This document shows positions 42,404-61,252 of a stretch of 64,000 bases of DNA, one piece after another. Source of the stretch: Longimicrobiaceae bacterium (GTDB lineage Bacteria; Gemmatimonadota; Gemmatimonadetes; Longimicrobiales; Longimicrobiaceae); assembly GCA_036375715.1 (NCBI GenBank), contig DASVBS010000022.1:62001-126000 (forward strand), in the 5' to 3' direction. The translations under genes and the position numbers were made by a program. Each line of letters starts with the position of its first letter. Position 1 is the first letter of the stretch. The notes below the pieces were generated by a model. That model worked only from the letters and a program-made list of their open reading frames with translations, was not told the origin of the DNA and made no database searches.

Positions 42404-42856
42404 GTGCCCGCGATCACCTGCAGCATCACCGACCAGCCGATCGACGCGGCAGCTATTCTGAACTCGGCGATCTCGCCGAGCGATGGTGCCGCGCTGCTCT
42501 TCCTCGGCGTCGTGCGCAATCACAATGAAGGCCGCGAGGTGGGGCACCTCGAGTACTCCGCTTTTCGGGAGATGGCGGAGCGCGTTCTCGCCGAGATCGC
42601 GCGCGAGGCCGCGGAGCGCTGGGAGACGGGCGACATCACCGTAGTGCACCGCATCGGCCGGCTGGACCTGGGGGAGGCGAGCGTGGCCATCGCGGTGGCC
42701 TCGCCCCACCGGGATGCCGCCTATCAGGCCTCGCGCTACATCATCGAGGAGCTGAAGCGGCGCGCTCCTATCTGGAAGAAGGAAGGGTACCTGGAAGGAG
42801 AGTCGGCGTGGCTCTCGGGCCACTCGCCCGCGCCCCGGGAGCTCGCGCATGAGTAG
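42404..42856 (+). CDS. moaE: Molybdopterin synthase catalytic subunit
   Basis: Partner of MoaD, converting precursor Z (cPMP) to molybdopterin. It has 150 residues with GAALLFLGVVRNHNEGR, YSAFREMAE, VVHRIGRLDLGEASVAIAV and the lysine-bearing IWKKEGYLEGE. GTG 42404 has GGAGG seven bases upstream; an in-frame GTG at 42398 is too close to it. The end overlaps moaA by 8 nt. Confidence 0.94.
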   Translation: MPAITCSITDQPIDAAAILNSAISPSDGAALLFLGVVRNHNEGREVGHLEYSAFREMAERVLAEIAREAAERWETGDITVVHRIGRLDLGEASVAIAVASPHRDAAYQASRYIIEELKRRAPIWKKEGYLEGESAWLSGHSPAPRELAHE

Positions 42857-45673: not shown

Positions 45674-46107
45674 AGGCGCCCGGCGGAGTGGTCGAGCGGC
45701 GCATCGCTCGGCGGGGTGGTGGTCACCTGAAGCCGACGGGGAGCCGAGGGGGCTTCGAGCTCTGGTCCTGGTTCTTCATGCGCATTTCCGGCCTAGTGCT
45801 GATCTTCCTGGCCCTCTATCACCTCATCTGGTGGAACCTGGTGATCGGGGTCGAGCACCTCGACTCGGCAATCGTGATCGAGCGCTGGAACAATCCGCTC
45901 TGGCGCTTCTTCAATGTCATGCTGATCACGCTGGCCATGCTGCACGGACTGAACGGCCTGCGCTACGTCATCGAGGACTACGTGCGTAGCCCTGGTAAGC
46001 AGGCCGCGACCAAGGCCGTGGCCTACACCGTGGTGCTCTCGGTGCTTGCGTTTGGCATTTACGCGCTGGTGACTTTCGATCCGGCTATCTTCTTCGCCGA
46101 CCGATGA
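45670..46107 (+). CDS. sdhD: Succinate dehydrogenase membrane anchor subunit
   Basis: Second anchor of complex II, 145 residues with three membrane helices. SWFFMRISGLVLIFLALYHLIWW and MLHGLNGLRYVIEDY carry the conserved Arg and His. GTG 45670 overlaps the sdhC stop and has GGAGG upstream; the longer frame is rejected. Its end overlaps sdhA by 4 nt. Confidence 0.9.
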   Translation: MKAPGGVVERRIARRGGGHLKPTGSRGGFELWSWFFMRISGLVLIFLALYHLIWWNLVIGVEHLDSAIVIERWNNPLWRFFNVMLITLAMLHGLNGLRYVIEDYVRSPGKQAATKAVAYTVVLSVLAFGIYALVTFDPAIFFADR

Positions 46108-47843
46108 TCCATACTCACACATACGATGCGCTGGTGGTCGGCGGCGGCGGCGCCGGCCTGATGGCCGCGATCTACCTGTCCCGGGAATCCGACATCAAGA
46201 CGGCGGTGATCTCGAAGCTCTACCCGACCCGCTCCCATACGGGCGCGGCTCAGGGAGGGATCGGCGCCGCTCTGGCCAACCTGGAGGAGGATCATCCCCA
46301 GTGGCACGCCTTCGACACGGTCAAGGGCTCGGACTACCTCGGCGACCAGGACGCCATCGAGACAATGTGCGAGGAGGCGGTGGGGGTGATCATCGAGCTG
46401 GAGCACATGGGGCTCCCCTTCTCGCGCACCCCTGACGGAAAGATCGCCCAGCGTCCTTTCGGCGGTCACACCCACCACTTCGGCCAGGGGCCGGTGCGTC
46501 GCTCCTGCTATTCGGCGGACCGCACCGGCCACATGATCCTGCAGACCCTCTACCAGAACTGCATCAAGAACGGAGTCGAGTTCTACGACGAGTTCCAGGT
46601 AGTAGACCTCCTGTTGAATGAGGGGCGCTGCGTGGGTGTGGTGGCGTACGAGGTGGCCACGGGCGACCTCCACGTCTTCCGGGCCAAGGCGGTGAACTTC
46701 GCGACCGGTGGGTTCGGGCGGGTCTGGTCGATCACCTCGAACGCGCACGCCAATACGGGTGACGGGCCGGCGGTGGCGCTGCGTCGCGGCATCCCGTTGC
46801 AGGACATGGAGTTCTACCAGTTCCATCCGACCGGCATCTACCGTCTCGGGATCCTGATTACCGAGGGCGTGCGCGGAGAAGGTGGGGTGCTGCGCAACGA
46901 TCTCGGCGAGCGTTTCATGGAGCGCTACGCTCCGACCATGAAGGACCTCGCCTCCCGCGACGTGGTGGCGCGGGCCATCAACCAGGAGATCCGGGAGGGA
47001 CGGGGGATCAACGGGAAGAAGTACGTCTACCTCGACGCCACCCACCTCGGCGCCGAGGTGATCGAGAAGAAGCTCCCCGACATCGCTGATTTCTGCCGCA
47101 CCTATCTGGGCGTGGATCCGGTGCGCGAGCCGATGCCGATCCAGCCGACCGCGCACTACGCCATGGGAGGCATCCCCACCGACGTGAACGGGCGGGTGGT
47201 GATCGACGCGCAACGAACCGTCTTCCCTGGCCTCTATGCGGCGGGGGAGACGGCCTGCGTCTCGGTGCACGGCGCGAACCGGCTGGGCACAAACTCGCTG
47301 CTCGACCTGGTCGTTTTCGGCAAGCGCTCGGGCGTCGACATGGTGCGCTTCTGTCGCGAGAACGACCTCGGTCCGCTCCCCGAGAATCCCACGGCCGAGA
47401 TCGCCGCGACATTGCAGCGCCTGCTGGATAACAAGGATGGCGAGCCGGCCGCCCGTCTGCGCGAAGAGATGCAGGACGTGATGCAGGACGACGTCGGCAT
47501 CTTCCGCGACGGCAAGGGGATGGAACGTGCGTTGACCAAGGTGCGCGAGCTGCGCGAGCGCTACCGTAACGTGGTGGTAATGGACAAGGGAAAGCGCTTC
47601 AACACCGACCTCATGGAGGCCTGGGAGCTGGGGAATCTGCTCGATCTGGCCGAGGTGACGACGTGGAGCGCCCTGAACCGGAAAGAGAGTCGTGGCGCGC
47701 ACATGCGCGAGGATTTCTCCAAGCGCGACGACCAGAACTGGCTCAAGCACACGCTCGCGTATCGTCGGGAAGACGACACGATCGAGCTCGCTTACAAGCC
47801 CGTGACGATCACGAAGTTCGAGCCGAAGGAGAGGGTGTACTGA
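46104..47843 (+). CDS. sdhA: Succinate dehydrogenase flavoprotein subunit
   Basis: Oxidises succinate to fumarate with covalent FAD. It has 579 residues: GGGGAGLMAAI for FAD, RSHTGAAQGGIG with the flavin-linking His, HPTGIY, TEGVRGEGG with the catalytic Arg region, and GAGETACVSVHGANRLGTN near the C-terminal FAD site. It shares the order CDAB with other bacteria and overlaps neighbours at both ends. Confidence 0.97.
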   Translation: MIHTHTYDALVVGGGGAGLMAAIYLSRESDIKTAVISKLYPTRSHTGAAQGGIGAALANLEEDHPQWHAFDTVKGSDYLGDQDAIETMCEEAVGVIIELEHMGLPFSRTPDGKIAQRPFGGHTHHFGQGPVRRSCYSADRTGHMILQTLYQNCIKNGVEFYDEFQVVDLLLNEGRCVGVVAYEVATGDLHVFRAKAVNFATGGFGRVWSITSNAHANTGDGPAVALRRGIPLQDMEFYQFHPTGIYRLGILITEGVRGEGGVLRNDLGERFMERYAPTMKDLASRDVVARAINQEIREGRGINGKKYVYLDATHLGAEVIEKKLPDIADFCRTYLGVDPVREPMPIQPTAHYAMGGIPTDVNGRVVIDAQRTVFPGLYAAGETACVSVHGANRLGTNSLLDLVVFGKRSGVDMVRFCRENDLGPLPENPTAEIAATLQRLLDNKDGEPAARLREEMQDVMQDDVGIFRDGKGMERALTKVRELRERYRNVVVMDKGKRFNTDLMEAWELGNLLDLAEVTTWSALNRKESRGAHMREDFSKRDDQNWLKHTLAYRREDDTIELAYKPVTITKFEPKERVY

Positions 47844-48589
47844 TGGCGCAGACCGCCGCATCCGCGCCCCCGCGCGCGCCGGCCACCTCGACAGCCACGA
47901 TCAAGATCCTGCGCTTCAACCCGGAGACCGATCGCGAGCCGACGTACCGGAGCTACCAGGTCCAGGTCGAGCCGACGGACCGGGTGCTCGATGCGCTCAA
48001 CACGATCAAGTGGTACCAGGACGGGACGCTCACCTACCGCCGCTCGTGTGCGCACGGGGTCTGCGGCTCGGACGCCATGCGCATCAACGGGGTCAACCGA
48101 CTGGCCTGCAAGGTGTTGATGCGCGACGTGGGAAGCGAGGTAGTGGTGGAGCCGTTGATGGGCTTCCGGGTGATCAAGGACCTGGTGGTGGATATGGAGC
48201 CCTTCTTTGCCCAGTACCGCTCCATCTTCCCCTACCTCATCAACGACGAGCGCCCGCCGGAGCGGGAGCGGATCCAGTCGATCGAGGAACGCGAGATCTT
48301 CGACGATACCACCAAGTGCATTCTGTGCGCGGCCTGCACTACCTCGTGCCCGTCCTTCTGGGCGAACGAGGAGTTCGTCGGGCCGGCGGCGATCGTGAAC
48401 GCGCACCGTTTCATCTTCGACTCTCGCGACCACGGGGCGAACTTGCGGCTGGCGCGCCTCAACGGGCGCGAAGGGGTCTGGCGCTGCCGCACGATCTTCA
48501 ACTGCACCGAGGCCTGCCCGCGCGAGATCAAGATCACCAAGGCGATCGGTGAGGTGAAGAAGGCGATTCTGTACGGCGGAGTGGGATGA
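47843..48589 (+). CDS. sdhB: Succinate dehydrogenase iron-sulfur subunit
   Basis: Carries electrons from FAD to quinone through three clusters. It has 248 residues: the [2Fe-2S] motif (SCAHGVCGSDAM), the [4Fe-4S] motif (CILCAACTTSCP) and the [3Fe-4S] motif (CRTIFNCTEACP) are complete. A Pro/Ala-rich N-terminus of about 18 residues is extra. ATG 47843 shares a base with the sdhA stop. Repeat locus E begins one base after the stop. Confidence 0.97.
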   Translation: MAQTAASAPPRAPATSTATIKILRFNPETDREPTYRSYQVQVEPTDRVLDALNTIKWYQDGTLTYRRSCAHGVCGSDAMRINGVNRLACKVLMRDVGSEVVVEPLMGFRVIKDLVVDMEPFFAQYRSIFPYLINDERPPERERIQSIEEREIFDDTTKCILCAACTTSCPSFWANEEFVGPAAIVNAHRFIFDSRDHGANLRLARLNGREGVWRCRTIFNCTEACPREIKITKAIGEVKKAILYGGVG

Positions 48590-48718
48590 GATAAGAAGCT
48601 AGAAGCTAGAAGCTAGAAGATTCCGGCGTCAGGCGCCTCAGACTCGAGCGACCGGGACCCCAGCTGTGGATTGCATTCTAGCTTCTAGCTCCTAGCTTCT
48701 AGCTTCTGATCTTATCAC
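48590..48718. repeat. Heptamer inverted repeat, locus E (AGAAGCT words)
   Basis: The left arm (48590-48621) has four AGAAGCT-type words after ATA; the right arm (48673-48718) has the complement, TTCTAGC words, ending GATCTTATC. About 51 nt separate them. The outer GATAAG/CTTATC ends also pair. Directly after the sdhB stop. Confidence 0.85.
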
Positions 48719-48731
48719 AAGTGAGGTCCCT

Positions 48732-48968
48732 TTGAAGGTCCCCATCGAGTGGCTGGTTCAGCGGGTCGATGAACCGCCCACCTCGTACAATCCGCGGGAG
48801 GGCAGTTCGCCGCTGCGCATCCGCATGGCGTGGCAGAAACTGAAGAGCCGGGCGCACGGGCAGGACGAGATCTGGGCCTACGCCAATCCGTCGGATCGAC
48901 ACGGGCGTCACCAGGGGTTCGCGCTGGTCAGAGAGGGCGTGGTGATCGAGGCGATCGAGGTGGATTGA
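48732..48968 (+). CDS. Hypothetical protein (78 aa)
   Basis: Short soluble protein read from TTG 48732 with GAGG seven bases upstream. Contents: VPIEWLVQRVDEPP, a basic middle (MAWQKLKSRAHGQDEIWAYAN) and a strand-turn-strand end (GFALVREGVVIEAIEVD). No family recognised. The TTG start follows the repeat element directly, so its transcript would need to start near 48718 or read through from sdhB. Confidence 0.5.
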   Translation: MKVPIEWLVQRVDEPPTSYNPREGSSPLRIRMAWQKLKSRAHGQDEIWAYANPSDRHGRHQGFALVREGVVIEAIEVD

Positions 48969-49078
48969 TAGGCCCCGTTCGGACGGGTGCCGGATGCCGA
49001 GAGGGCGCGAAGTCCAACGACTTCGCGCCCCCTTTCGTTCTCACGATCCTTGCCTGTCGCCGTCGAATCGAGCGGGTC

Positions 49079-49825
49079 TCACTGGTCGGCGGTGGACACG
49101 GCGGTCGAGACGATGATCGCGCCGTGTGGATGCCCGGGGCCGAGCCGCAGCGCTGCCTGCGCGGCTGAGAGCCGGGTGATCGACCGGACTTCTGCGGCGG
49201 GGATGCTGCGCAGGTTGTCGACGTCTCCCAGACGTGCGTTGTCCAGGTAGGTAATGATCTGCGGAGTGCCGGGAATGACGGCGACCGAATAGTCGGTCTC
49301 GAGCACCTGTCCCTGCTCGAGCAGGCTCTTGTTGCCGCGGACGATGAACCAGTCCGGCTTGAGCGACTGGATGACCTCGAAGACGGTGGTGCCTCCCGCC
49401 TCGGCGATCTCCTCGTGGGAGAGGAACTCGATCCCTTCCATCGCAACGTTCCTGGGGATGGCCAGCCCCGGCCCCACCCCTGCGTGGTGCTCCCCGATCA
49501 GGAGCCCTGCGATCGCGCCGATTGCCGCGCCGCTCGCGGAGTAGAGGCGACGCTGTTCGAGGAAGCTGCTGTTGGAGGTCTTGTGCCAGTCGTTGTAGAC
49601 CACGTGACTGGTGAAGTATCCCAGGCCGGCGCCGACCACGGCACCCCCCACGGTGAACAGAGTCCTGGTCAGGAGGCTTCGCGCGGCGCTGCGGCGGCCT
49701 GACGCCATCTCGGCCTGGGCCGCCGGGGAGAGCAAAGATGCGCTCCGCGAGCTGAGTAACTGCCCCTGCGCCTCGCCCGCCAGGGCAAGGATCGATAGGG
49801 CGACGAGTGGTATGCGGCGATACAT
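49079..49825 (-). CDS. Exported protein with TonB-plug-like C-terminal domain
   Basis: A 248-residue protein with a signal peptide (PLVALSILALAGEAQGQ), a glycine-rich membrane-like stretch (FTVGGAVVGAGLGYF, GAAIGAIAGLLIGEHH) and a C-terminal region with IPAAEVRSITRLSAAQAAL then GPGHPHGAIIVSTA. This last part resembles the plug domain of TonB-dependent receptors, without any barrel. ATG 49825 starts the signal peptide. Function unknown; perhaps a periplasmic partner of a receptor. Confidence 0.6.
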   Translation of the reverse strand: MYRRIPLVALSILALAGEAQGQLLSSRSASLLSPAAQAEMASGRRSAARSLLTRTLFTVGGAVVGAGLGYFTSHVVYNDWHKTSNSSFLEQRRLYSASGAAIGAIAGLLIGEHHAGVGPGLAIPRNVAMEGIEFLSHEEIAEAGGTTVFEVIQSLKPDWFIVRGNKSLLEQGQVLETDYSVAVIPGTPQIITYLDNARLGDVDNLRSIPAAEVRSITRLSAAQAALRLGPGHPHGAIIVSTAVSTADQ

Positions 49826-50345
49826 CTGGGCTGCGGGGGCTGCGGTAAAAGCGAGGCCTCGCCGGAGGAGCCTCTCGCGAGGGGCTCGGCCTGCGGGGGG
49901 CGGAATCTCCGAAAAGTCCCACACGGGCGTGTGCCAGGGACGGCTGGAGGCTCGATGCTCTCCGGCGCGCGGGATTGGTATATCATGCGCGGCTTACATG
50001 CCCGGGGCAAGTCGGCCGAATCTCCGCAGCGGGAGCTTCCCCTGGACGACGCCGTCCTGTCCGTTTCCTGGCCGCCTCCGACAACGCCTACCGCGACGCC
50101 CTGCGCTGCTCGCCGAGACCGACCGAGCGGCGCGTCGCGACCCTTCGCCTGGTCCAGGCGTCGAGCGCCGTCGCCCTTTCCCCAACCGGATTGCGCGGCG
50201 CGTCATTCCCGAAGCAGGACCGTCGCACCCGAACGCCGAGGTCGGGGGACATGCGACGCCCCGGGCGCCCGCGCCGTTTTCGGGGCGGTTCACGTGTTTC
50301 CCGCCGGCTGGAGGCGCCATCAGGGATGCGAGCGCTTCCTCGCGC
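49826..50345. other. Intergenic region of about 520 nt
   Basis: No convincing gene. Several overlapping reading frames exist on both strands, but all are Arg/Pro-rich and none shows a motif, good start site or steady codon use. A decayed gene is possible; I cannot name it. Confidence 0.3.
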
Positions 50346-51782
50346 TCACCAGCGCGGTGGCACGACGGCCCACGAAGCGCCCCAGCAGGCCACGGTGCCG
50401 GTGGACCTTAACGCGCAGGTGCCCCAGTTCGCCGCGCTCAGCTGTGTGAAGGTACCCGCGGGAGGCGTCGCCTGGCCAAGCTCATTGCTCCCCCAGCAGG
50501 CGAGGGTGCCGTCCGAACGGAGGGCGCAGGTGTGTTCGACGCCTGCGCTGACCTGGGTGAAGGTGCCGTCGGGAACTCCGCTCACCTGGCCCTCGCTGTC
50601 GTCGCCCCAGCAGATCACGGAGCCGTCCCGGCGCAGAGCACAGCTGTGGGTGTGGCCCGCGCTCACCTGGACGAAATCGGTGCCGGGGGGTGGCGAGGCC
50701 TGGCCGAGGTCCGGGATTCCGCCGCCGCCGTCAACCGCTCCCCAGCACGAGATGGAGCCATCCCGCCGCAGCGCGCAGGTGTGCGAGTTGCTCGCGCTGA
50801 CCTGCACGAACGGTCCTTCGTGCGTGTGGGTTGCCGAATAGGTCGGGGAGCCGCCGACCTGGCCGGCCCAGTTGTCGCCCCAGCAGTAGACCGAACCGTC
50901 TCCACGGAGCGCGCAGACATGCGAGCCACCCGTGCTCACCTGCGTGAAGTCGGAGGAGTGGAGCGTGCAGGTGTACAGCCAGAGCGAAGGGTGGTCGCAA
51001 GCCCAACCCTCTTCCGGGGGGTTGCTGTACCGAACGAGTAACTCGCTGCCCCAACAGGTGAGCGTGCCGTCGCCGCGCACCCCACAGCCGACGACGTTGG
51101 CGTAGCCCGCATCCACCTGGACGAAGCCGGCGCCGGGTGGCTGCAGGTCGGTGGGTCCGCAGGTCACGGTGCCGTCCGCGTGCAACCCGCAGTTGTTCTC
51201 CCCCGCGCTCACCTGGACGAACCGCACGGCGGTCCGGGTGCGGGCCGCGACCAAATCGAAGTGCACGGTGAACGGACCTGGCTGGAGCGCGTCGACGTAG
51301 AGCACCGCCTCGAACACGTCCTCGGGGCCGACCGACTCACGCGGCAGCTGCAGCCCGGGGTGACGCAGCACCGCCACACGGACCCGGCAGTTGACACAAT
51401 GCATCGGCGCGGCCGCGTCCCCCACCTCGTCGCGCCGGAAATCCACGCTGTCCAGCACGATGTCCTTTACCGTGAAGCGCACGGTCAGGACCTGATCCTC
51501 CAGCGCCTGGTTCCCGCACCCCTCACAGGTTACGCTGGCCTCTACGTGGTCGGCCGTCACCGGCACGCGGGTCAGAGACGGGCCCCCGGCTCCGCTGGCG
51601 ACACCGGCTCCCTGCCGCAGCTGGACCACCCCGATCGCGGGGTCGACCTCCAGCGCGATCTGGGCGACGACCGAGCGATCGTCGGGGAGTGGAGCTTCGG
51701 CCGCGGGGCCGAGTAGGCGCGGGCTCTCCTGACAGCCGACGAGGAGAAGCGCCAGCGGGAGGAGGAACGATCTCGATCGCAT
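50346..51782 (-). CDS. RCC1-repeat lipoprotein
   Basis: A 478-residue protein with a lipoprotein signal (LALLLVGC, lipid Cys at residue 17) and a C-terminal beta-propeller. The propeller has at least six RCC1-type repeats of the form FxQVSAGxxHxCALRxDGSVxCWGxN, about 45 residues apart, each with two Cys that could pair. An N-terminal domain (about 20-185) holds VTCEGCGNQA and HCVNCRV. RCC1 propellers bind proteins or ligands at the surface. It follows the RiPP cluster on the same strand after about 130 nt; a link is uncertain. Confidence 0.8.
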   Translation of the reverse strand: MRSRSFLLPLALLLVGCQESPRLLGPAAEAPLPDDRSVVAQIALEVDPAIGVVQLRQGAGVASGAGGPSLTRVPVTADHVEASVTCEGCGNQALEDQVLTVRFTVKDIVLDSVDFRRDEVGDAAAPMHCVNCRVRVAVLRHPGLQLPRESVGPEDVFEAVLYVDALQPGPFTVHFDLVAARTRTAVRFVQVSAGENNCGLHADGTVTCGPTDLQPPGAGFVQVDAGYANVVGCGVRGDGTLTCWGSELLVRYSNPPEEGWACDHPSLWLYTCTLHSSDFTQVSTGGSHVCALRGDGSVYCWGDNWAGQVGGSPTYSATHTHEGPFVQVSASNSHTCALRRDGSISCWGAVDGGGGIPDLGQASPPPGTDFVQVSAGHTHSCALRRDGSVICWGDDSEGQVSGVPDGTFTQVSAGVEHTCALRSDGTLACWGSNELGQATPPAGTFTQLSAANWGTCALRSTGTVACWGASWAVVPPRW

Positions 51783-51911
51783 TCGATACTCTCCTGCGGG
51801 CGTGAAAGTCGGAGACCAGCAGGGGGACGGAAGCGGGCGGATGTGCCGCCAGACTCGAGCGAGTTGCCCTATTCTTTGGGGACAAATAGATCCAAGCCCA
51901 GACCCTGTATG

Positions 51912-53240
51912 TCAAGAGTCTTCGCGTGCCTGCGGCGGGACCGCGAGGACCGACGTCCCGGCCGCGGTAGGCGGGTTCTCCGGGACGCCGGAGCGGGCAC
52001 CCGTCGTGGTGCGGTGGGATGATCGAGGGAGGAGGCCGTAGCTGGTCGTCAGGCGGAGCGGTCGGAGCAGGTAGTAGAGCGGGAAGAGCGGGTCGGGGAG
52101 GGGCAGGGCCTGCCAGTCCTCCGGGGTCGGCGTCCAGAGCGCGCGCCAGAGATAGCGCGCCCGGCCGCCCAACCCGTCCAGGGCCCTGAGCTGGAAGCGG
52201 TGGAAGGGCAGCCCCCGCGAATGGGCGGGTCGATCGTCCTCGGCGCCGATCCATGCACGCGCCTCGTGGCAGAGCCGCAGGGCCCCGCGGTCGGAGCGCA
52301 CCCGATCCGCGATCCGGTCGGGGAGCGGCGCGTCCAGCAGCTCCTGCGCCAGGCGCAGCCCGAGGAACAGCACCCGGCGGCTGCGGAAGCGTTCCGCCCG
52401 GCTGATGGCCTGGTCCCAATCGATCTCGTGCGAACGGACCAGCTCGGCGACGTCGCAGAGCCACGCGAGTCGCTCCCAGAGGTGCCGCGCGCCGTGGAAG
52501 CAGAGTACGAGAAGAAGGTCCTCCGTCCCGAAGGTCGGGACGGCCATCCCCGCCATCCGCAGCGACCGCGTAGCGGGACGCAGCGCGTCCAGGTCCAGCG
52601 ACGCGATGGGGTGGCGCGTGGCGAAGGCCCAGTGGAGCTCTACCGAGACCCGACCCGCGCCTCCATGCAGCGGGAGGTTGTTGTTGGCGCGCAGGAGCGC
52701 CCTCTGCTGCCGGGGAGAGAGTCGGTCGCGCGGGCGGTAGCCGAGGCACTGGAGAACGTCGAGGGCGCGTGGGAGGTCGTCCGGACGGACCAGCACGTCG
52801 AGGTCGGTCATCTGTCGAAAGGCCACGTCGCCGTACAGCTGGTGCGCCAGCACCGGTCCCTTGTAGGGAAGCCCGGCGATCCCGCGTGCTTCGAGGTGGA
52901 GGAGAATCTCCCGCAACGCCTTGACCAGCACCCGGCTATGGGCGGCATTGAGCGCCACCTCCGTCCGGAGCTCTCGTAGGAGGTCGGCCGGCACTTCGGG
53001 GACCGGCAGCGCTGCGAGGTGGCGCAGGAGGAAGGGGACTACCCGGTGCCGGCGGGCCAGTGCGAGCAGCTCCGGCCAGCTCACCCCCTCCCGGATCAGC
53101 GCCGCGACGCGCTCGGCCCCCGACCGGGACAGCTCGGAGCGTGCGCAGAGCACCAGAAGCTCCCACGCGCGCCCCCGGGGCAAATCCTGATCGCCGGCTC
53201 CGGGCGGGGGGTGGAGCACCTCGCTCGTCAGCGCGGGCAT
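51912..53240 (-). CDS. Nucleotidyltransferase-fold protein of RiPP cluster
   Basis: A 442-residue protein of the NTP_transf_5 group often found in lasso and related peptide clusters. The core is GIAGLPYKGPVLAHQLYGDVAFRQMTDLDVLVRP, with the DLD metal pair and upstream Lys, then FGTEDLLLVLCFHGARHLWERLAWLCDVAELV. The C-terminal tail is Pro/Thr-rich and unlike the family. It starts one base after the B2 stop and ends the operon. It may nucleotidylate or otherwise modify the peptide; the reaction is not established. Confidence 0.75.
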   Translation of the reverse strand: MPALTSEVLHPPPGAGDQDLPRGRAWELLVLCARSELSRSGAERVAALIREGVSWPELLALARRHRVVPFLLRHLAALPVPEVPADLLRELRTEVALNAAHSRVLVKALREILLHLEARGIAGLPYKGPVLAHQLYGDVAFRQMTDLDVLVRPDDLPRALDVLQCLGYRPRDRLSPRQQRALLRANNNLPLHGGAGRVSVELHWAFATRHPIASLDLDALRPATRSLRMAGMAVPTFGTEDLLLVLCFHGARHLWERLAWLCDVAELVRSHEIDWDQAISRAERFRSRRVLFLGLRLAQELLDAPLPDRIADRVRSDRGALRLCHEARAWIGAEDDRPAHSRGLPFHRFQLRALDGLGGRARYLWRALWTPTPEDWQALPLPDPLFPLYYLLRPLRLTTSYGLLPRSSHRTTTGARSGVPENPPTAAGTSVLAVPPQAREDS

Positions 53241-53241
53241 G

Positions 53242-53706
53242 TCACGCCGGCCGGGGGAGGGCGGAGGGGATTCGGTGCATCACGACGAAGGCCGTGCGCG
53301 GGTCGCCCTCCTCCAGATACGGCCGCCCGTCGCGCTCCAGCCAGCAGTGGCCGCTGAGCCTGCCCCCCGCGGTGAGGGTGGCGCCGAAGCAGAGGCGCAG
53401 CTCCATGCCCGCGCGACGGAGGAAGTAGTAGCGGGTGACCCCACGCGTGAGACAGCCGGGGCGGATCCACGGCCCGCCGCCGCGCAGCACCCGCTCCACG
53501 CACGCGGACACGCGCGCCACCGTCGGCGCATCCGCGGGGGGTGGGGGGCGGCGCGGCTCGAGGAACCGCTCCAGCGCCGAGAGCGGCAACCGCACTAGCG
53601 CCGGAGCCGCCATCGCCACGAGGAAAACGCGGGCCAGAAGGAGGCTCCTCTCGATCCGCGGTAAGCCCCCTCGTGGGCGCGAGATAGGGATCGTCGTCTC
53701 CGTCAT
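53242..53706 (-). CDS. Lasso-type B2 protein (transglutaminase-like leader peptidase)
   Basis: A 154-residue protein of the transglutaminase-like family that removes the leader in lasso-peptide pathways. The catalytic triad can be placed at Cys85 (RPGCLTRGVTRYYFLRRAG), His120 (SGHCWLERDG) and Asp126. It lies 14 nt after the pqqD-like gene. With the RRE protein it should recognise the leader and cut near the conserved Thr of the precursor (inference). Confidence 0.85.
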   Translation of the reverse strand: MTETTIPISRPRGGLPRIERSLLLARVFLVAMAAPALVRLPLSALERFLEPRRPPPPADAPTVARVSACVERVLRGGGPWIRPGCLTRGVTRYYFLRRAGMELRLCFGATLTAGGRLSGHCWLERDGRPYLEEGDPRTAFVVMHRIPSALPRPA

Positions 53707-53720
53707 CCGAGCGACCGCGC

Positions 53721-54023
53721 TCAGCCTGGCTGCCGGCGGCCGACCAGGCCCTCCTCGCGTAGCAACGCGACGAACTCGGCCACCAGGGCCGCCGCCGCCT
53801 CGCTCGTGACCTCGTACTCCGCGACCAGCGCCTCGACCGCCGTGGCGACGTCGCCAGAGCGCTCCAGCGCCTCCCAGATGCGCATCCCGGTCTCGTTCAG
53901 CGAGTAGTAGCGCTTGGTCTCGATGCTCAGGAGGATCCCCTCCGTGTCGCTCACGCGAGTGAAGACGACCTCGGGGCTGGGTCGGATGCGGTGTGCGGTC
54001 GTGGACTCGGGACGGATCTGCAT
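53721..54023 (-). CDS. PqqD-like RiPP recognition element
   Basis: A 100-residue PqqD-family protein, equivalent to lasso B1, that binds precursor leaders and presents them to the enzymes. It shows VVFTRVSDTEGILLSIETKRYYSLNETGMRIWEAL followed by the three-helix end with a VTSEAAAALVAEFVALLREEGLV pattern. It sits 19 nt after the radical SAM gene. Confidence 0.88.
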   Translation of the reverse strand: MQIRPESTTAHRIRPSPEVVFTRVSDTEGILLSIETKRYYSLNETGMRIWEALERSGDVATAVEALVAEYEVTSEAAAALVAEFVALLREEGLVGRRQPG

Positions 54024-54042
54024 GGCGAATCGGCGAGGACGC

Positions 54043-55080
54043 TCAGCGCGGCGCGGACGGGAGGACCGGCAGCGACCGAGTGCGGGCCCGGCGCGGCACC
54101 TTGCCGTAATGCTCCAGGCAGTGAGCGCAGATGAAGTGGTCGCGTTCGTCGGCAGGCCCTTGCGCCAGCCGCTCGATCTTCTCGCGGTTGAGGCGCGCGA
54201 TCCGCTTCACCAGCCGTTGGTGCGCCTCGTATAGGCTGACCCGGGCCAGGTCGGCGATGACGTCGGTGTCCGGGGTCCCGCCGCGGTAGTTGGACAGCGT
54301 GCAGCAGGCGGTGAGGTAACCCCGATAGTCGACGTTGAACTCCCGCATCTCGAGCTGCGGGCACTGGTAGAAGCGGGACTCCTCGTAGTGGTCGCCGGCG
54401 AGCAGGATCCGCAGCCGGAGGGCGCGCTGCAGCGCCGCGATCTCGGCCTCCACCTCCCGGCGTTCGCGCGGGTCCAGCACCAGGCCGGCCGCCTCCGCGT
54501 CGGGCGTGGGCTGGCAGTGCCCGTAGAACAGCGCCTCGCACCCGAGGCGACTTGCCAGCATCGCCATCGCCTCCAGCTCCGAGCGGTTGGCGCGGGTCAC
54601 CACCATGTTCAGGTGGACCGGGACACCCCAGGCGCGACAGAGCGCGACGCCCTGTAGCACGCGACGGAACGAGCCCGCGCGTCGGCGCAGGGTGTCGTGC
54701 GTCTGCTCGGTCGCGCCGTCGAGGCTGAAGGTGACGTGCGCGCACCACTCCCGGTACGGCCGGAGCTGCGCGCCGGTGCGGGAGACGAACTGCCAGCCGT
54801 TGGTCACGAAGCCGAACCGGTAGCCGTGCTCCGTCACCCGGCGAAGGATCTCCGCGAAACGCGGGTGCAATGTGGGCTCGCCGCCGGTAAAGGCCACGAA
54901 GTTCACGCTCCGGTAAGCCTTCGCCTCGACGAGCACCTTTTCGACCAGCTCGACGGGGAGGAATGTGCCGGTTCCCCCCTCCTCCCGGATGCAGTGCGTG
55001 CAGCGGAAGTTGCACACGTCGGTCAGCTCGAAGATGAGCTTGATCCCCGGACGCCGGTCGGGGGTGGGAGCGTGTCTCAT
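54043..55080 (-). CDS. Radical SAM peptide-modifying enzyme
   Basis: A 345-residue radical SAM protein. The cluster motif is C23-C27-C30 (VCNFRCTHC), SAM is bound at FTGGEPTLHP, and the C-terminal half has Cys in QCPQLEMREFNV, LTACCTL and ICAHCLEHYG, as in SPASM or twitch domains with one or two auxiliary clusters. ATG 55080 overlaps the kinase stop; the longer frame is rejected. In this setting it probably installs a C-C, C-S or epimer modification in the precursor core; the exact reaction cannot be read from sequence. Confidence 0.85.
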   Translation of the reverse strand: MRHAPTPDRRPGIKLIFELTDVCNFRCTHCIREEGGTGTFLPVELVEKVLVEAKAYRSVNFVAFTGGEPTLHPRFAEILRRVTEHGYRFGFVTNGWQFVSRTGAQLRPYREWCAHVTFSLDGATEQTHDTLRRRAGSFRRVLQGVALCRAWGVPVHLNMVVTRANRSELEAMAMLASRLGCEALFYGHCQPTPDAEAAGLVLDPRERREVEAEIAALQRALRLRILLAGDHYEESRFYQCPQLEMREFNVDYRGYLTACCTLSNYRGGTPDTDVIADLARVSLYEAHQRLVKRIARLNREKIERLAQGPADERDHFICAHCLEHYGKVPRRARTRSLPVLPSAPR

Positions 55081-56117
55081 GCGCCCATCAGCCGGCTGGG
55101 AGACGGTGCGGGGGAGCCGACGGAGACCAACGGTTCGAGGAGTTCCACCACGCGCTCCGGGGCGTCCTCCACGTCCCGGCCCGCGAGCAGGCGGTAGCCG
55201 CGCGCCTGGGCCGCCAGCCGGCCCAGGACGGCCAGGTGGCAGGGAAGCGTCTCCGGATCGAGCGCCAGAACGGCGCTCTGAGCAATGAGGCGCGGCAGCA
55301 TCTCCGCCGGCGCCAGCGGCACGAGCCGGCTCTTGGCCAGAGGCGCGATCTCGGGGAACAGCAGCACCTGCGGGCGGCAGCACGCCACGAGCCGGTGCGG
55401 GAAGAGGGTGCGCATGTCGAGCCGATGCTTCCCCCTCCCGGCGAATGGACCGGGCGCCCCGTGAACGGCGACCTCGGGGAAGCGCGTGGCCAGGACGGGG
55501 TCGAGGCAGAGATCCCGGCGCAGGGCCAGGCCCTCCACCCCCTCGCCGAGCGGCCGGAGTAGAAGGGCGTCGTCTGCGAGATAATCCCAGCCGCCGCGCA
55601 CCAGGGTGTAGGTGATCGTGGACTTACCGCTGCCGGACCCCGCGACGAACAGGTAGCCGGCGCCGCGGTAGACGACCGCCGAAGCGTGCAGCGCGAAGAG
55701 GCCGCGGCGGCGGACCAGGAGGAGGAGGGCGTAGACAACGAGGTCCTTGCGCGGCGGGTCGGTGGCGCCGGGGAGCCAGCCCTGCGCCACGCCGCCACGG
55801 AGGTCGAGGCGGAAGTGGTGCGCCCCCGAATCCAGCCAGAGCCCGGTATCGGAACCAAGCGCGCGAATGCCGTCCTGACGGGCGATCTCCCGCGCGTCGT
55901 CGGGGAGCGGCGGCGCCTGGCGGGCGGAGACCACCAACCGTAGCGGGACGGGGTCGGGATTCGGCACCGCCGTCCCCAGCCCGAAGTGCTCGAGGATCGC
56001 GCGCACCCGCAGGAGGAGTGACGGGTCATCGCCCTCCAGGCGTAGCCCCACGCCGTGGAGCGCATACGTGTAGGTCCGAGACTGCCGACTTCCGGGGGCT
56101 GTCCGCACGGCGTCCAT
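55077..56117 (-). CDS. HprK-related kinase of RiPP cluster
   Basis: A 346-residue P-loop kinase-like protein related to the HPr kinase group seen in lasso clusters, where some members phosphorylate the precursor at a C-terminal Ser. Walker A is GSGSGKST (160-167), preceded by ALHASAVVYRGAGYLFVAG, and the acidic pair is at 182-183 (YLADDALLL). ATG 56117 is preferred to TTG 56126. It starts 52 nt after the precursor stop and overlaps the radical SAM gene. The precursor core contains Ser and Thr as possible targets. Confidence 0.8.
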   Translation of the reverse strand: MDAVRTAPGSRQSRTYTYALHGVGLRLEGDDPSLLLRVRAILEHFGLGTAVPNPDPVPLRLVVSARQAPPLPDDAREIARQDGIRALGSDTGLWLDSGAHHFRLDLRGGVAQGWLPGATDPPRKDLVVYALLLLVRRRGLFALHASAVVYRGAGYLFVAGSGSGKSTITYTLVRGGWDYLADDALLLRPLGEGVEGLALRRDLCLDPVLATRFPEVAVHGAPGPFAGRGKHRLDMRTLFPHRLVACCRPQVLLFPEIAPLAKSRLVPLAPAEMLPRLIAQSAVLALDPETLPCHLAVLGRLAAQARGYRLLAGRDVEDAPERVVELLEPLVSVGSPAPSPSRLMGA

Positions 56118-56169
56118 GCAGCTCAAGCCGGGGAGCGACCGTCCGGGTGCGCGCTGCGGCGCCCGTTCG

Positions 56170-56340
56170 TCACGGACTGAAAGTCCCGATGAAGGAGCCG
56201 GTTACCTCCGGAAGGGAGCCGTGTCGCGTGAGCTCAGGCCGGACCATCGGCTTACGCGGCGCCGCCGTGCGCGACGTCTCCTCTGGCTGCGGCGAAGGGG
56301 TGCGGGGCTCGGGTCTCATGTCCGTTCCGGTCGTCGCCAT
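56170..56340 (-). CDS. Candidate RiPP precursor peptide, lasso-type leader (56 aa)
   Basis: A 56-codon gene heading the cluster. The leader matches the lasso recognition rule Y-x2-P-x-L-x3-G-x5-T: Met32 stands for Tyr, then Pro35, Leu37, Gly41 and Thr47. Cleavage one residue after the Thr, as in lasso peptides, would leave SFIGTFSP, an eight-residue core with two Phe, two Ser and one Thr but no Asp or Glu. A lasso ring is therefore not possible. ATG 56340 has GGAG six bases upstream; a longer TTG start at 56415 lies in the -35 box. The N-terminal half is Pro/Thr/Ser-rich. Confidence 0.7.
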   Translation of the reverse strand: MATTGTDMRPEPRTPSPQPEETSRTAAPRKPMVRPELTRHGSLPEVTGSFIGTFSP

Positions 56341-56386
56341 TCCAGTCTCCGCGTAGAGGTGGCGGGCGGATCGGGAAACTCCTGTA

Positions 56387-56415
56387 TCCATAATCTGCGA
56401 AGGGATGGGTGGCAA
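56387..56415 (-). promoter_or_regulatory. Promoter of RiPP operon
   Basis: On the minus strand TTGCCA (56415-56410), 17 nt spacer, TATGGA (56392-56387); about 40 nt of leader to the precursor ATG. Confidence 0.5.
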
Positions 56416-56489
56416 GACAGGTCCTTAAAGTGTCCACCTGAGGGGATGGACAGCGGGCCGTTCTCGATCGCGCGCTGGTACGCCCGCTG

Positions 56490-56756
56490 TTGCTGTGCGG
56501 ACTGATGTCGACCCCGCTGTACCTCGGGATCGATCTTCTCGCCGGGTCGAGGTACGAGGGGTACAGCTTCCTCGATCAGGCAGTCAGCGAGCTATCCGCG
56601 ATCGACGCGCCGACGCGCGGGCTCTGGCTCGCTCTCGGTCCCCTGTACCAGCTCCTGGTGCTGCTTTTCGGCGTGGGGGCGCAGCTGGCCGCCGGGCGTG
56701 ACCGGCGGCTGCGGATCGCCGCTAGCGGACCGCCTCGCCCTCCTCGATCCGTCTGA
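56490..56756 (+). pseudogene. Truncated DUF998-family membrane protein
   Basis: Only the N-terminal third of a DUF998 protein remains: LLCGLMSTPLYLGIDLLAGSRYEGYS, FLDQAVSELSAIDAPTR and LALGPLYQLLVLLFGVG match the family, which normally has about 200 residues and six helices. The frame then runs into an unrelated tail and stops at 56756, overlapping the 3' end of the convergent merR. The open frame begins upstream of any good start codon. A deletion joining it to merR seems likely. Confidence 0.65.
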
Positions 56757-57123
56757 CGATTCTCCGAAAATCGAGGCAGCGAGTAAAATCCTCGGCGCGA
56801 CAGGTGAGCGCGTGGTCGACCATGGCCCGCGCCGCGTCGAGCTCACGCTGACGCCGGTCCAGCTCCGCCCGGTGCTCCAGGAGTAGCTTGCGCCGGGTCG
56901 ACCGATCCGGCGCCTGGAGGATCTGCCGGATGCGCTCCAGGCTGAGGCCGGCCGCCTTCGCCCCCAGGATCAGGGCGATCCTCGCCTCCTGCTCACGCCG
57001 ATAGCGCCGCCGTCCGTTGACCCGTTCCGTCGGCAGCAGCAATCCGACGCTCTCCCAGTGCCGCAGCACGTGTGGCTCCAGGCCGAAGCGCGCTGCCAGC
57101 TCCCCGATCGTCATCCCGCTCAT
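56722..57123 (-). CDS. MerR-family transcriptional regulator
   Basis: A 133-residue regulator with an N-terminal MerR helix-turn-helix (MTIGELAARFGLEPHVLRHWESVGLL), the wing and dimerisation helix (LDRRQRELDAARAMVDHAL) and a short effector end with Cys108 and Cys116 (CRAEDFTRC) that could sense metal or redox state. It is divergent from the thioredoxin-reductase-like gene, and a typical 19-bp-spacer promoter with a dyad lies between them. Confidence 0.85.
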   Translation of the reverse strand: MSGMTIGELAARFGLEPHVLRHWESVGLLLPTERVNGRRRYRREQEARIALILGAKAAGLSLERIRQILQAPDRSTRRKLLLEHRAELDRRQRELDAARAMVDHALTCRAEDFTRCLDFRRIVRRIEEGEAVR

Positions 57124-57133
57124 CGCAACGCCC

Positions 57134-57164
57134 TTGACTTAAAGTTCACCTTAACATTTAGAAT
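57134..57164 (+). promoter_or_regulatory. MerR-type promoter/operator of the oxidoreductase gene
   Basis: TTGACT (57134-57139) and TAGAAT (57159-57164) with a 19-bp spacer, the elongated spacing that MerR activators correct. Within the spacer is the dyad TTAAaGTtcACcTTAA (57139-57154; capitals pair). Confidence 0.8.
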
Positions 57165-57214
57165 GCGGAGTCTGCAGTTCGTAGACAAGACTCCAGGACA
57201 ACGGGGAGGTGCAA

Positions 57215-58153
57215 ATGGTTCGGGATGTGATCGTGATCGGCGGAGGGCCGGCGGGGCTCGCGGCGGCGCAGACGCTGGGGCGGATGCGGCGGAGAACCCT
57301 GGTGCTGGACTCGGGGGAGCCGCGCAACGCGCCTTCGCCCGCGATGCACAACTTCCTCTCGCGCGATGGTACGCCGCCGGCCGAGTTGAGACGGATCGCC
57401 CGCGAGGAGGTGGGTCGGTATGCCTCGGTCGAGCTGCGCGACGGGCGCGTCGACGCGGCGCAGTTCGTCGAGGAGGGCTTCGAGGTCCGGCTCGCGGATG
57501 GTGAGCGAATCCGCGCGCGTCGGCTGCTGCTGGCGACCGGTCTCGCGGACGAGCTGCCGCCCATTGCCGGCCTGAGGGAGCTCTGGGGCAAACGGGTGCT
57601 GCACTGCCCCTACTGCCACGGCCACGAGGTGGCGGATGGGCCGCTCGCCGTGCTGGGGAGCGCTGCGCCGCGCGTGCGCATGGCGCTCCTCCTGACGCGC
57701 CTCTCCAAAGACGTCGTGCTCTGTCCCGCCGGGGAGGACTTACCTGATGCGGAAACCCGGGCGAAGCTCGGGCGGCAGGGGGTGCGGGTGCGAGAGGGAG
57801 AGGTGAGTGCGGTGGAAGCGTTGGGAGAGGATTCGGTCCGACTCCGCTTCGCGGACGGAGGCGTGTTGGAGCGGCGGGCGCTCTTCGTACAGTCTCGGCC
57901 CGTCCAGCGCAGCTCGCTGGCCGCGGAGCTCGGCTGCGATCTGTTGGAGGACGGCAGCGTCGTGGTGGACGAGGCTTATCGGACTACGGTCGCCGGGGTG
58001 TACGCCGCGGGCGACATGGCCCGGCGCGTGACCCCGCACTGGGCGGCCTCGTCGGTGATCGTCGCGGCCGCGGGGGGCGCGACGGCCGCGGCGATGATCG
58101 ACCAGGATCTTCTCAGTGCGGATCTCGGTCTGCCGCTGCCGTTCGCAGGGTAG
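57215..58153 (+). CDS. Thioredoxin-reductase-like FAD oxidoreductase
   Basis: A 312-residue flavoprotein: FAD loop GGGPAG (9-14), redox pair C131-C134 (CPYCHG), an NADP-domain segment in which the GxGxxA pattern is degenerate (AVLGSAAPRVRMA), and C-terminal GVYAAGDMARR. Proteins of this group reduce a thiol partner or act on small disulfides. ATG 57215 follows GGGGAGG. Its divergent MerR regulator with paired Cys suggests induction by thiol-reactive stress (inference). Confidence 0.85.
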   Translation: MVRDVIVIGGGPAGLAAAQTLGRMRRRTLVLDSGEPRNAPSPAMHNFLSRDGTPPAELRRIAREEVGRYASVELRDGRVDAAQFVEEGFEVRLADGERIRARRLLLATGLADELPPIAGLRELWGKRVLHCPYCHGHEVADGPLAVLGSAAPRVRMALLLTRLSKDVVLCPAGEDLPDAETRAKLGRQGVRVREGEVSAVEALGEDSVRLRFADGGVLERRALFVQSRPVQRSSLAAELGCDLLEDGSVVVDEAYRTTVAGVYAAGDMARRVTPHWAASSVIVAAAGGATAAAMIDQDLLSADLGLPLPFAG

Positions 58154-58196
58154 GGAGCTGCGGGGGGACGGATCGGACGGCTGTATCTACCCGGTC

Positions 58197-58808
58197 TCAG
58201 TGGACTCCCGCCGTCTCTGATCCTGTTAATCCTCTCTTCGTGGTTTCGCTGCCAGGATGAAAGTCGCGACGTCGCGTCCAGAAGTAATGTAGCCAGAGGG
58301 CATTGAACCCTAGCGTTAGAAGGGCGGCGATGCGCGTTTCAGACGGTTCGGCCGGATCGACCATCGTCGCCAGCGCTCCGAGGATCGAAAGAGGCACTAC
58401 CACCATGCATATCCACCACGCCCACTTGCGAAACCGCGACACCCCCCTGGCCATCAGAAACGGCAATCCAGCCAACAGTACGAAAGCGATCGCCAGGACC
58501 AGCGCCTCAGTGAGGCCGAACTCGTTTAATGAGTCTGCTGCGGCAAGAAGCATTACGATGGGCGCCACAATACCGAACATTGCTGCCCCAAAATAGTTGA
58601 GTCCTATGAACAACTTTCCCGGCCAGGTATGGGAAGGAGCTTTGTGGATCACCCTCGCCGTCGCGAATCCGTCACCGGGCGGGCCGGACAAACCGCCCGC
58701 GCTTTTTGCGACCGCAATGGAGGCGTCGGTCGGACAGCCACAGTGAATACAGGCGGACGAGGCGTCGGAGATTGACTGGTAACAATCACGGCAAGTGATC
58801 AATGGCAT
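58197..58808 (-). CDS. Zinc-ribbon membrane protein
   Basis: A 203-residue protein: an N-terminal zinc ribbon with C6-C9 and C20-C23 (CRDC, CIHC), a short linker and four membrane helices (about 68-185; two pairs). Function unknown. Its GC content is visibly lower than in the neighbours and codon use differs, which suggests recent acquisition. Confidence 0.7.
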   Translation of the reverse strand: MPLITCRDCYQSISDASSACIHCGCPTDASIAVAKSAGGLSGPPGDGFATARVIHKAPSHTWPGKLFIGLNYFGAAMFGIVAPIVMLLAAADSLNEFGLTEALVLAIAFVLLAGLPFLMARGVSRFRKWAWWICMVVVPLSILGALATMVDPAEPSETRIAALLTLGFNALWLHYFWTRRRDFHPGSETTKRGLTGSETAGVH

Positions 58809-59164
58809 AAGCAGATCAAAGAAGGATTACAATGCGGCCGAGGATTACGTACTTATGCGAAAAGGCCTCGTGACCATAGTCTCGGCCAGAGGCTGGCTCG
58901 CCCGTAGCGATGGCAGCGGCTCGTCGTGTACAGACGGTACGCGGCGTTGGGCGCAGGGCGCCCACTGGTGGCTGCTGCTCACAGACGCGAAGCCGACCTG
59001 CGATCTTGTCGTTGAGGAGGTCGAGAGCGTGTGATGATGCGGCCCGGGTCACGACGGAGGGGCGTGCGGTTGACCGTCGACGGGCTTTCGGAGACCTTCG
59101 ATGCAGACTGGGGCTACCGCATGCTCTTCGATTCTGCCGCCAAGCGCACGTAGAAACAGGAATC
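58809..59164 (+). other. Intergenic region upstream of recQ
   Basis: About 356 nt. A 79-codon frame (58795-59034) overlaps the zinc-ribbon gene start and has no family match. A short in-frame tail (59035-59151, ...DADWGYRMLFDSAAKRT) may be the end of a decayed gene. A weak promoter TTGACC-17-GACCTT ends near 59100. Nothing else seen. Confidence 0.35.
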
Positions 59165-61252
59165 TTGCCCACCGAAAAAGCACGCGAACTCCTGCACCGA
59201 TACTGGGGTTACCCCGACTTCCGTGCCGGACAGAAGAAGGCCATCGAGGCGATTCTCTCCCGCCGGGACACCCTCCTCATCATGCCCACCGGGGGCGGGA
59301 AGAGCATCTGCTACCAGGTCCCGGCGCTGCTCTTCGACGGCGTCACCATCGTCGTTTCCCCCCTCATCTCCCTGATGAAGGACCAGGTGGACACGCTGGC
59401 GCAGGCGGGGCTGCCGGCCACCTTCATCAACTCGAGCCTCTCCAGTTCGGAGATGGCGGCGCGGCTGGAAGCGGTCGAGCGCGGGGCCGTCAAGCTCGTC
59501 TACGTCGCCCCGGAGCGCTTCGACAGCCCCGCCTTCGCGGAGCGGGTTCGCCGCCTCGACGTGTCCCTGCTCGCGGTCGACGAGGCCCACTGTGTCTCGC
59601 AGTGGGGACACGATTTCCGACCGTCCTACCTGCGGGTCGGCAGGGTGCGCGAGATGCTCGGAGACCCGCCGATCGCGGCCCTGACCGCCACCGCCACGAG
59701 GGAGGTGCGGGAAGACATCGAAAGGCAGCTCCGCCTGCGTGACCCCCAAGTCTTCATCACCGGGTTCGATCGGCGGAACCTCCTCTGGCGCGTCCTCCGA
59801 GCGAAAAACGACTCGGAGAAGGACCGCCTCCTGCTCCGCCTCCTCCAGGGGCGCCAGGGCGGCCTCGGCTTCTCGCTTGAGAACAGCAGCGGCTCCGCGA
59901 TCGTCTACGCCTCGACGCGAAAGAGCGTCGACGCGCTCACCTCCCTGCTGGGCGGGATCGGGATAGCCGCGGTGGGCTACCATGCTGGTCTGCGCGACAC
60001 GGAGCGGAAGCGCATCCAGGACGCCTTCATGGCGGGAGAGGCTCGCGTCGTCGTGGCCACGAATGCGTTCGGGATGGGGATCGACAAGCCCGACGTGCGC
60101 CTCGTGGTGCACTACAACATGCCGGGCACTCTCGAAGCGTACTACCAGGAGGGCGGCCGCGCCGGGCGGGATGGAGGACAGTCGGACTGCGTGCTGCTGC
60201 ACGCCTATCCCGACCGCTTCACCCACGAGTTCTTCATCGAGCAGACCTACCCTCCTCGCAGCCTGGTCGAGAGCCTCGTCCGCGAGCTGCGCTCGCGAGC
60301 CGACGCCGAGGGAGCCATCCGCCTGGGGACCGCCGAACTCGTGCGCACGCTGCCGGGAGGCCCTAAGGATCGGCAGGTCGCCTCCGCGCTCCGCCTACTC
60401 GAGGAGGCGGGCATCATTCGCTCGTTGTCGGCGGGAGGGTCGACCGGAGCACACGTGCGGTTGATCGCGACAGCCGAACGGATCCGCCGAGAGATCGACC
60501 GTCCCGACCGGCAGGAGGAGTTGCTCTTCCTGCGACGTCTCTGGCGGCTGGGAGGTGGCAACGGACTCTACCGGGGCGCTGCGATGCGCTGGCGGGACCT
60601 CGGAGCGGCGGCGGGTGGCCGTGAGCGGGCGGCGGAGCTGATGGATGCCCTGCAGGACGAGGGAGTGCTGGAATGGACGCGCTTCCTGGACGGAGAGGGG
60701 ATTCAGCTGTTGGACCGCTCCACCCGCGTGGATCGTCTTCCCATCGACTGGCGCAGGCTCGAGGCCAGGAAGAGGCGGGATCTCGACAAACTGCAGAAGA
60801 TGCAGGGTTACGCGTACACCGACCGCTGTCGTCGAGGATACGTTCTACGCTACTTCGGCGATCCCGATGCCATGGACGAATGCGGTGCCTGCGACGTCTG
60901 CATGGGTGAGGCACGCCAGGCTGATCGTCCCCGGGAGACGCGAGAGGACCGCACTGTTGCGGCGCGCCCGCAGGGGACGCGGCGATCCCGCGCACGCCGC
61001 ATCCGCGACGTCACACCCTACACCCCCACCCCCGCCGAGGAGCAGCTGTTCGAACGCCTGCGCGCGGTTCGCAGTCAGCTCGCCCGCGGAGATGGGGTTC
61101 CCGCCTACTGCGTGTTCAACGACCGCACGCTCGCGGAGCTCGCGCGCCGCCGACCCGCCACCGAAGACGCCCTGCTCGAGATTCCCGGCGTGGGTCCTGC
61201 GAAGGCGGCGAAGTACGGACGCGCCTTCCTGGAAATTCTCCAGGAGGCGTAA
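59165..61252 (+). CDS. recQ: ATP-dependent DNA helicase RecQ
   Basis: 3'-5' DNA helicase in recombination repair. From TTG 59165 it has 695 residues: helicase motif I (TGGGKS, about 42-47), the DEAH box (VDEAHCVSQWGHDFRP), motif VI (QEGGRAGRDG), the RQC zinc-binding module (CRRGYVLRYFGDPD..CGACDVC) and a C-terminal HRDC domain (ELARRRPATEDALLEIPGVGPAKAAKYG). The long in-frame upstream extension is not like RecQ; AGGA before TTG supports the start. The linker before HRDC is Arg-rich. Confidence 0.93.
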   Translation: MPTEKARELLHRYWGYPDFRAGQKKAIEAILSRRDTLLIMPTGGGKSICYQVPALLFDGVTIVVSPLISLMKDQVDTLAQAGLPATFINSSLSSSEMAARLEAVERGAVKLVYVAPERFDSPAFAERVRRLDVSLLAVDEAHCVSQWGHDFRPSYLRVGRVREMLGDPPIAALTATATREVREDIERQLRLRDPQVFITGFDRRNLLWRVLRAKNDSEKDRLLLRLLQGRQGGLGFSLENSSGSAIVYASTRKSVDALTSLLGGIGIAAVGYHAGLRDTERKRIQDAFMAGEARVVVATNAFGMGIDKPDVRLVVHYNMPGTLEAYYQEGGRAGRDGGQSDCVLLHAYPDRFTHEFFIEQTYPPRSLVESLVRELRSRADAEGAIRLGTAELVRTLPGGPKDRQVASALRLLEEAGIIRSLSAGGSTGAHVRLIATAERIRREIDRPDRQEELLFLRRLWRLGGGNGLYRGAAMRWRDLGAAAGGRERAAELMDALQDEGVLEWTRFLDGEGIQLLDRSTRVDRLPIDWRRLEARKRRDLDKLQKMQGYAYTDRCRRGYVLRYFGDPDAMDECGACDVCMGEARQADRPRETREDRTVAARPQGTRRSRARRIRDVTPYTPTPAEEQLFERLRAVRSQLARGDGVPAYCVFNDRTLAELARRRPATEDALLEIPGVGPAKAAKYGRAFLEILQEA

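Follow-up and report, generated by a model that had tools for sequence, protein, structure and literature searches.

Why does a short reading frame in a Longimicrobiaceae genome carry the leader of a lasso peptide precursor in front of an eight-residue core that offers no acid for ring closure, and what is made from it? The ORF runs from 56340 to 56170 on the minus strand of the window, by which we mean the whole 64,000-nucleotide stretch analysed. With a probability of roughly 0.78, we read it as the precursor (A) of a non-lasso RiPP, in which a lasso leader-processing and tailoring kit would serve a short peptide modified by a radical SAM (rSAM) enzyme.

The precursor ORF and its operon

The 56-aa translation reads MATTGTDMRPEPRTPSPQPEETSRTAAPRKPMVRPELTRHGSLPEVTGSFIGTFSP, with the C-terminal stretch RKPMVRPELTRHGSLPEVTGSFIGTFSP; an alternative TTG start at 56415 would give an 81-aa precursor. 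P35, L37, G41, T47 and Met32 all lie where the initial annotation had placed them, as does the GGAG upstream of the start codon. That annotation had also proposed a promoter, TTGCCA-17-TATGGA. The letters exist, but a promoter scan gave no site above threshold, so the promoter does not count as evidence. The features of the ORF are as follows.

56170..56340, minus strand: precursor peptide gene (A), 56 aa, ATG start; leave-one-out profile match E=4e-10
56347..56350, minus strand: GGAG, possible ribosome-binding site 6 nt before the ATG, read from the sequence
56230..56247, minus strand: leader recognition motif MVRPEL (M32-L37), predicted positions -17 to -12; register compared with PMC10368454
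56197..56202, minus strand: T47-G48, predicted -2/-1 residues of the B2 cleavage site, by the Thr(-2) rule from PMC10368454
56173..56196, minus strand: predicted core peptide SFIGTFSP; relatives have conserved [GS]F[FIV][GSN]xFxP-type cores

If the leader is cut after T47-G48, positions -17 to -12 are taken by residues 32-37 and position -2 by T47; YxxPxL of the lasso precursor BsfA is reported in that same -17 to -12 register (PMC10368454). The precursor carries the lasso-type leader pattern, YxxPxL followed by Thr at -2, albeit with Met at the Tyr position. The translation bears out the claim that the usual cut leaves SFIGTFSP, without Asp or Glu. No annotated family matched the ORF above its own cut-off, and the NCBIfam model lasso_leader_L3 reached a sub-threshold 14.9 bits on the leader (cut-off 19).

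Downstream of the precursor, and all on the minus strand, lie the genes for an HprK-like kinase, an rSAM enzyme, a PqqD-type RRE, a B2 leader peptidase and an NTP_transf_5 protein, in that order, with an RCC1-repeat gene beyond them.

55077..56117, minus strand: HprK-like kinase (K); HprK_rel_A 5.5e-08, under cut-off; ATG start, TTG at 56126 also possible
54043..55080, minus strand: radical SAM maturase with C-terminal auxiliary-cluster cysteines; PF04055 1e-25
53721..54023, minus strand: PqqD-type RRE (lasso B1-like); PF05402 1.6e-18, lasso_PqqD_Bac 1.5e-15
53242..53706, minus strand: lasso B2-type leader peptidase; lasso_biosyn_B2 63.4 bits (cut-off 33), PF13471
51912..53240, minus strand: NTP_transf_5 nucleotidyltransferase (N); PF14907 8.5e-62
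50346..51782, minus strand: RCC1-repeat protein with lipobox-like signal, possibly associated; PF13540 2.2e-45; not conserved in anammox cassettes

The kinase keeps His, the P-loop Lys and Asp-Asp, the residues used to recognise HprK-like kinases of K/N-tailored peptides (PMC9266682). The rSAM protein has a CxxxCxxC motif and five C-terminal cysteines, all eight of which are kept in 26 of 26 relatives; BlsE, SkfB, PqqE and SuiB are among the solved structures closest to it in fold and profile. The cassette holds both the combination that marks an rSAM-dependent RiPP (CxxxCxxC, auxiliary cysteines and RRE) and the RRE (B1) and B2 leader peptidase of a lasso cluster, the peptidase retaining its Cys and His. 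Models for ScmF, ScmC and ScmD match proteins of the cassette, all under their cut-offs, and no exporter is evident in it. A distantly related second rSAM gene lies about 10 kb away in the window (42849-43904, plus strand).

Relatives in anammox bacteria

A search of the same phylum returned rSAM relatives at 33-40% identity, a kinase-based search of the window's order returned distant lasso-type kinases only, and plasmid and viral collections held no useful relatives. Closer rSAM relatives came from a genome-wide scan: locus L102, at 58% identity, and, among anammox bacteria, Brocadia (L103), Jettenia (L105) and Anammoxibacter (L106). Directly before the kinase or rSAM gene in L102, L103 and L105, and before a GNAT gene in L106, stands a small ORF whose leader follows the plan seen in the window and whose short core is rich in Phe; the cores are GFVGSFVP (L102), GFFGPFSP (L106), GFFGSFAPYE (L105) and QSNGFFSAFVP (L103). 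The check suggested by the initial annotation, a collection of homologous clusters, thus came out in favour of the ORF, which adjoins the same enzymes and is conserved at leader and core positions.

Leaders in anammox bacteria (Brocadiales) end in (F)xxPxL-x3-G-x5-T and precede cores such as GFFGPFSP, SFFGTF and GFVGSFVP. In a five-row precursor alignment that includes the window, only P35, L37, T47, F50, F54 and P56 are invariant. Phe50 and Phe54, previously singled out as core positions, are both among them, but F50 becomes Leu once in the larger precursor set, where the final Pro is absent twice. The replacement of Tyr by Met32 was correctly read, but is an oddity of the window copy, the relatives having Phe. 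The core pattern [FL][FIV][GSN]xF, usually followed by xP, is conserved across phyla. Cores of the relatives span 6 to 11 residues, and every core in the profile and selection sets has at least one Ser or Thr, at no fixed position.

Gene order A-K-rSAM-PqqD-B2-N is identical in the window, L103, L213, L215 and L216. L218 and L219 have this order plus a GNAT acetyltransferase gene; the L106 and L102 cassettes contain a GNAT gene and no kinase within the fetched stretch. The related GNAT genes lie at L106 7202-7729 (in place of the kinase), L218 5409-5972, L219 9216-9758 and L102 2829-3422. Similarity of the B2 proteins in anammox bacteria is modest (E about 1e-9 to 1e-13). Anammox precursors (L103, L105, L106, L211-L221) have the leader motif doubled in tandem (FxEPKLTFIEPKLTKHG), which looks as if it offered two recognition sites; it is single in the window and L102.

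The precursor profile had matches in 12 of the 62 genomes from Brocadia's order, some with several copies, and one anammox genome (G745) holds multiple divergent copies. Within the window's phylum, where 395 genomes were searched, a full match came from the window genome alone, and a search of its whole assembly found one copy. FF also appears in the core of precursor-like ORFs at L108 3885-4088, L110 6608-6889 and L222 5326-5538, which belong to Acidobacteriota (..KKPFVEPTISVPVDVLEATTFFQAASSGSTN) and to an unclassified genome (..TFFKTFK).

The proposed product and its alternatives

In the pathway that we propose, the PqqD-like RRE would bind the (F/M)xxPxL leader and the rSAM enzyme would modify the core at Phe residues, by C-C cross-linking or epimerisation. 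The HprK-like kinase may phosphorylate Ser or Thr of the core, and the NTP_transf_5 protein may elaborate the core phosphate, with the K and N of pseudomycoidin as the parallel. Cutting by B2 after Thr-Gly would yield a modified octapeptide derived from SFIGTFSP. Since the core has no Cys, thioether chemistry is excluded; a sactipeptide or ranthipeptide was rejected, there being no Cys in any core of the profile and selection sets. Core phosphorylation by the kinase is uncertain because Ser/Thr positions vary and neither the L102 nor the L106 cassette, as fetched, includes a kinase gene. Phosphorylation of a C-terminal Ser as in paeninodin is likewise unsupported as a fixed rule.

The alternative that survives best, though we consider it unlikely, makes the short core the source of a small cofactor or signal, as for PQQ and mycofactocin, with only part of the octapeptide in the mature product. 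The placing of PqqE among the nearest solved rSAM relatives, the shortness of the core and its two or three Phe, the presence of one rSAM enzyme and no exporter, and the one precursor copy in the window genome would all fit. The variable core length and the lasso-type RRE and B2 speak against it, and the multiple divergent precursors of G745 look more like a peptide family. It is very improbable that the peptide remains bound to the surface protein of a neighbouring gene (RCC1 repeat here; S74/YadA or PD40 in Gemmatimonadota relatives) or regulates it: secreted repeat proteins do occur in these clusters, but they differ between clusters and the anammox cassettes show none of them.

A lasso peptide was rejected as the product. 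No Asp or Glu stands at core ring positions 7-9 in SFIGTFSP or in any relative of the profile and selection sets, and the cluster has neither a cyclase C nor a core with such an acid and a threaded tail. An Asn_synthase-type cyclase is absent from the window's 128-kb contig, and no full Asn_synthase occurs near the relatives' cassettes. Two relatives allow a wider view: G430 (Brocadia pituitae) is listed as a complete genome, and in G677 the cassette contig covers 3.46 Mb of a genome of ~3.5 Mb. Neither has a full Asn_synthase match anywhere, weak partial matches only, so the cyclase is not merely displaced. With no usable acid in the cores and no cyclase near the cassettes or in these two genomes, the product is not a lasso peptide, and the earlier statement that no macrolactam is possible holds. 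We regard a true lasso peptide with its cyclase elsewhere in the genome as extremely improbable. Lasso clusters do contain this type of leader, RRE, B2, K and N, and Asn_synthase genes do occur elsewhere in the window genome, on different contigs and in part close to further lasso-like genes; against this stand the acid-free cores, the single-chromosome relatives G430 and G677, and the lack of a cyclase near any cassette.

The reality of the precursor itself was assessed with a leave-one-out profile built from 15 precursors, all from other genomes and with the window ORF excluded. The ORF scored 35.6 bits (E=4e-10) and was the sole real match among the 1223 stop-to-stop segments of the window; the runner-up reached 2.7 bits, and the best score in 30 first-order Markov windows was 11.8 bits. 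For 14 anammox precursor copies, pN/pS was 0.08 in the leader block and 0.25 in the five-residue core block (pairwise counts, uncorrected for relatedness), and by these counts purifying selection is acting on the anammox copies. An ORF that looks like a lasso leader only by chance, for which the weak promoter and the lack of an annotated family above cut-off might speak, has next to no probability given the profile score against the null, the position and core conserved across phyla and the selection on anammox copies. Judged from its sequence, the 56-codon ORF is a genuine RiPP precursor.

Related clusters and known systems

Most Gemmatimonadota rSAM relatives have a different precursor directly upstream, with the leader PWxxPxVxxLPRLTxLTL and a Gly-rich core ending in STVF or SVF. 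These clusters resemble the window cassette in their related rSAM, kinase, RRE and B2, and one occupies the same sdh-recQ slot, but their rSAM proteins form a separate clade and the core is wholly different. No description of this precursor family was found in the literature searched. Its members ([RK]xPWxxPxVxxLPRLTxLTL) lie at L057 6883-7059 and 7191-7367, L058 12601-12984, L061 10897-11175, L063 9221-9379, L066 13344-13556 and L069 13499-13684, with S74/YadA-head and PD40 proteins in some of the clusters. Lasso-leader precursors with very short cores (about 5-10 residues, for example LLGGSL, LISGGF and LSGNGIQL), several beside HprK-like kinases, were seen at L058 18159-18299, L057 13891-14100, L075 10092-10241, L205 1477-1659 and L208 1471-1686.

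In the rSAM tree, the window and L102 are joined with support of 100/99 and placed with the anammox clade at weak support (92/60); all of them fall outside a well-supported Gemmatimonadota clade (99/97). An extra rSAM cysteine (GVALCRAWG in the window) is present in 11 of 11 L102 and anammox sequences and 0 of 15 from Gemmatimonadota. In these sequences core type is seen to track the rSAM clade and not the host. The window cassette lies between sdhAB and recQ, a slot that holds a Gly-rich-core cluster in the family relatives L059 and L061, and different clusters in one slot suggest that cassettes have been exchanged at this site. Differing rSAM/lasso-type clusters fill the interval, a possible exchange site, in the window (46104-61252), L059, L061 and L074. 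Small Cys-rich ORFs with hydrophobic N-termini adjoin the cluster in tandem at L059 8087-8621 and L061 4281-5103.

In known lasso clusters, K phosphorylates the C-terminal Ser and N adds hexoses to that phosphate (PMC8498205, PMC9266682). The phosphorylated and phosphoglycosylated lasso peptides (paeninodin, pseudomycoidin, the bsf cluster) share with the window A, B1 (RRE), B2, the HprK-like K and the nucleotidyltransferase N, as well as a (Y)xxPxL leader at -17 to -12 and, in most, Thr(-2) (Ile in bsf). In contrast to these, the window cassette has an rSAM enzyme and no cyclase C, and its family has a core of about eight residues without usable Asp or Glu and Phe or Met in place of Tyr. PqqD/rSAM RiPPs (PQQ, sactipeptides, the SynChlorMet cassette) likewise combine an RRE with an rSAM enzyme bearing auxiliary-cluster cysteines, but the window differs from them in its lasso-type leader, lasso B2 peptidase, Cys-free core and precursor. 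In its treatment of lasso-model matches, the RRE-Finder survey reports some 300 RREs that match the lasso model and stand beside rSAM enzymes, with no lasso machinery, and counts them as false positives of the model (PMC7470986). The lasso-type RRE beside an rSAM enzyme and the absent cyclase are as in the window, but that treatment describes no such precursor family (PMC7470986).

In the open-licence literature (anammox lasso peptides, Brocadia RiPPs, SynChlorMet, rSAM/kinase lasso clusters) we found no description of SFIGTFSP-type precursors and nothing relevant on anammox RiPPs or lasso peptides. FFGxFxP-type precursors are probably their own family within RiPPs, and the cassette and core type shared with anammox bacteria point to an undescribed family of bacterial peptides. 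The odds seem about even that this is a RiPP class of its own, where the module that reads and cuts lasso leaders, together with K and N, has been uncoupled from cyclisation and the rSAM enzyme cross-links or epimerises Phe of FFGxFxP-type cores; its products in anammox bacteria, in a lineage of Gemmatimonadota and elsewhere would be octapeptides that are phosphorylated or phosphoglycosylated. Portable as they are, the leader rule, RRE and B2 peptidase of lasso clusters are no proof of a lasso peptide, a point that matters for the calling of such clusters by genome-mining tools. A concrete short substrate is now available for an uncharacterised set of rSAM enzyme, kinase and nucleotidyltransferase, anammox bacteria included.
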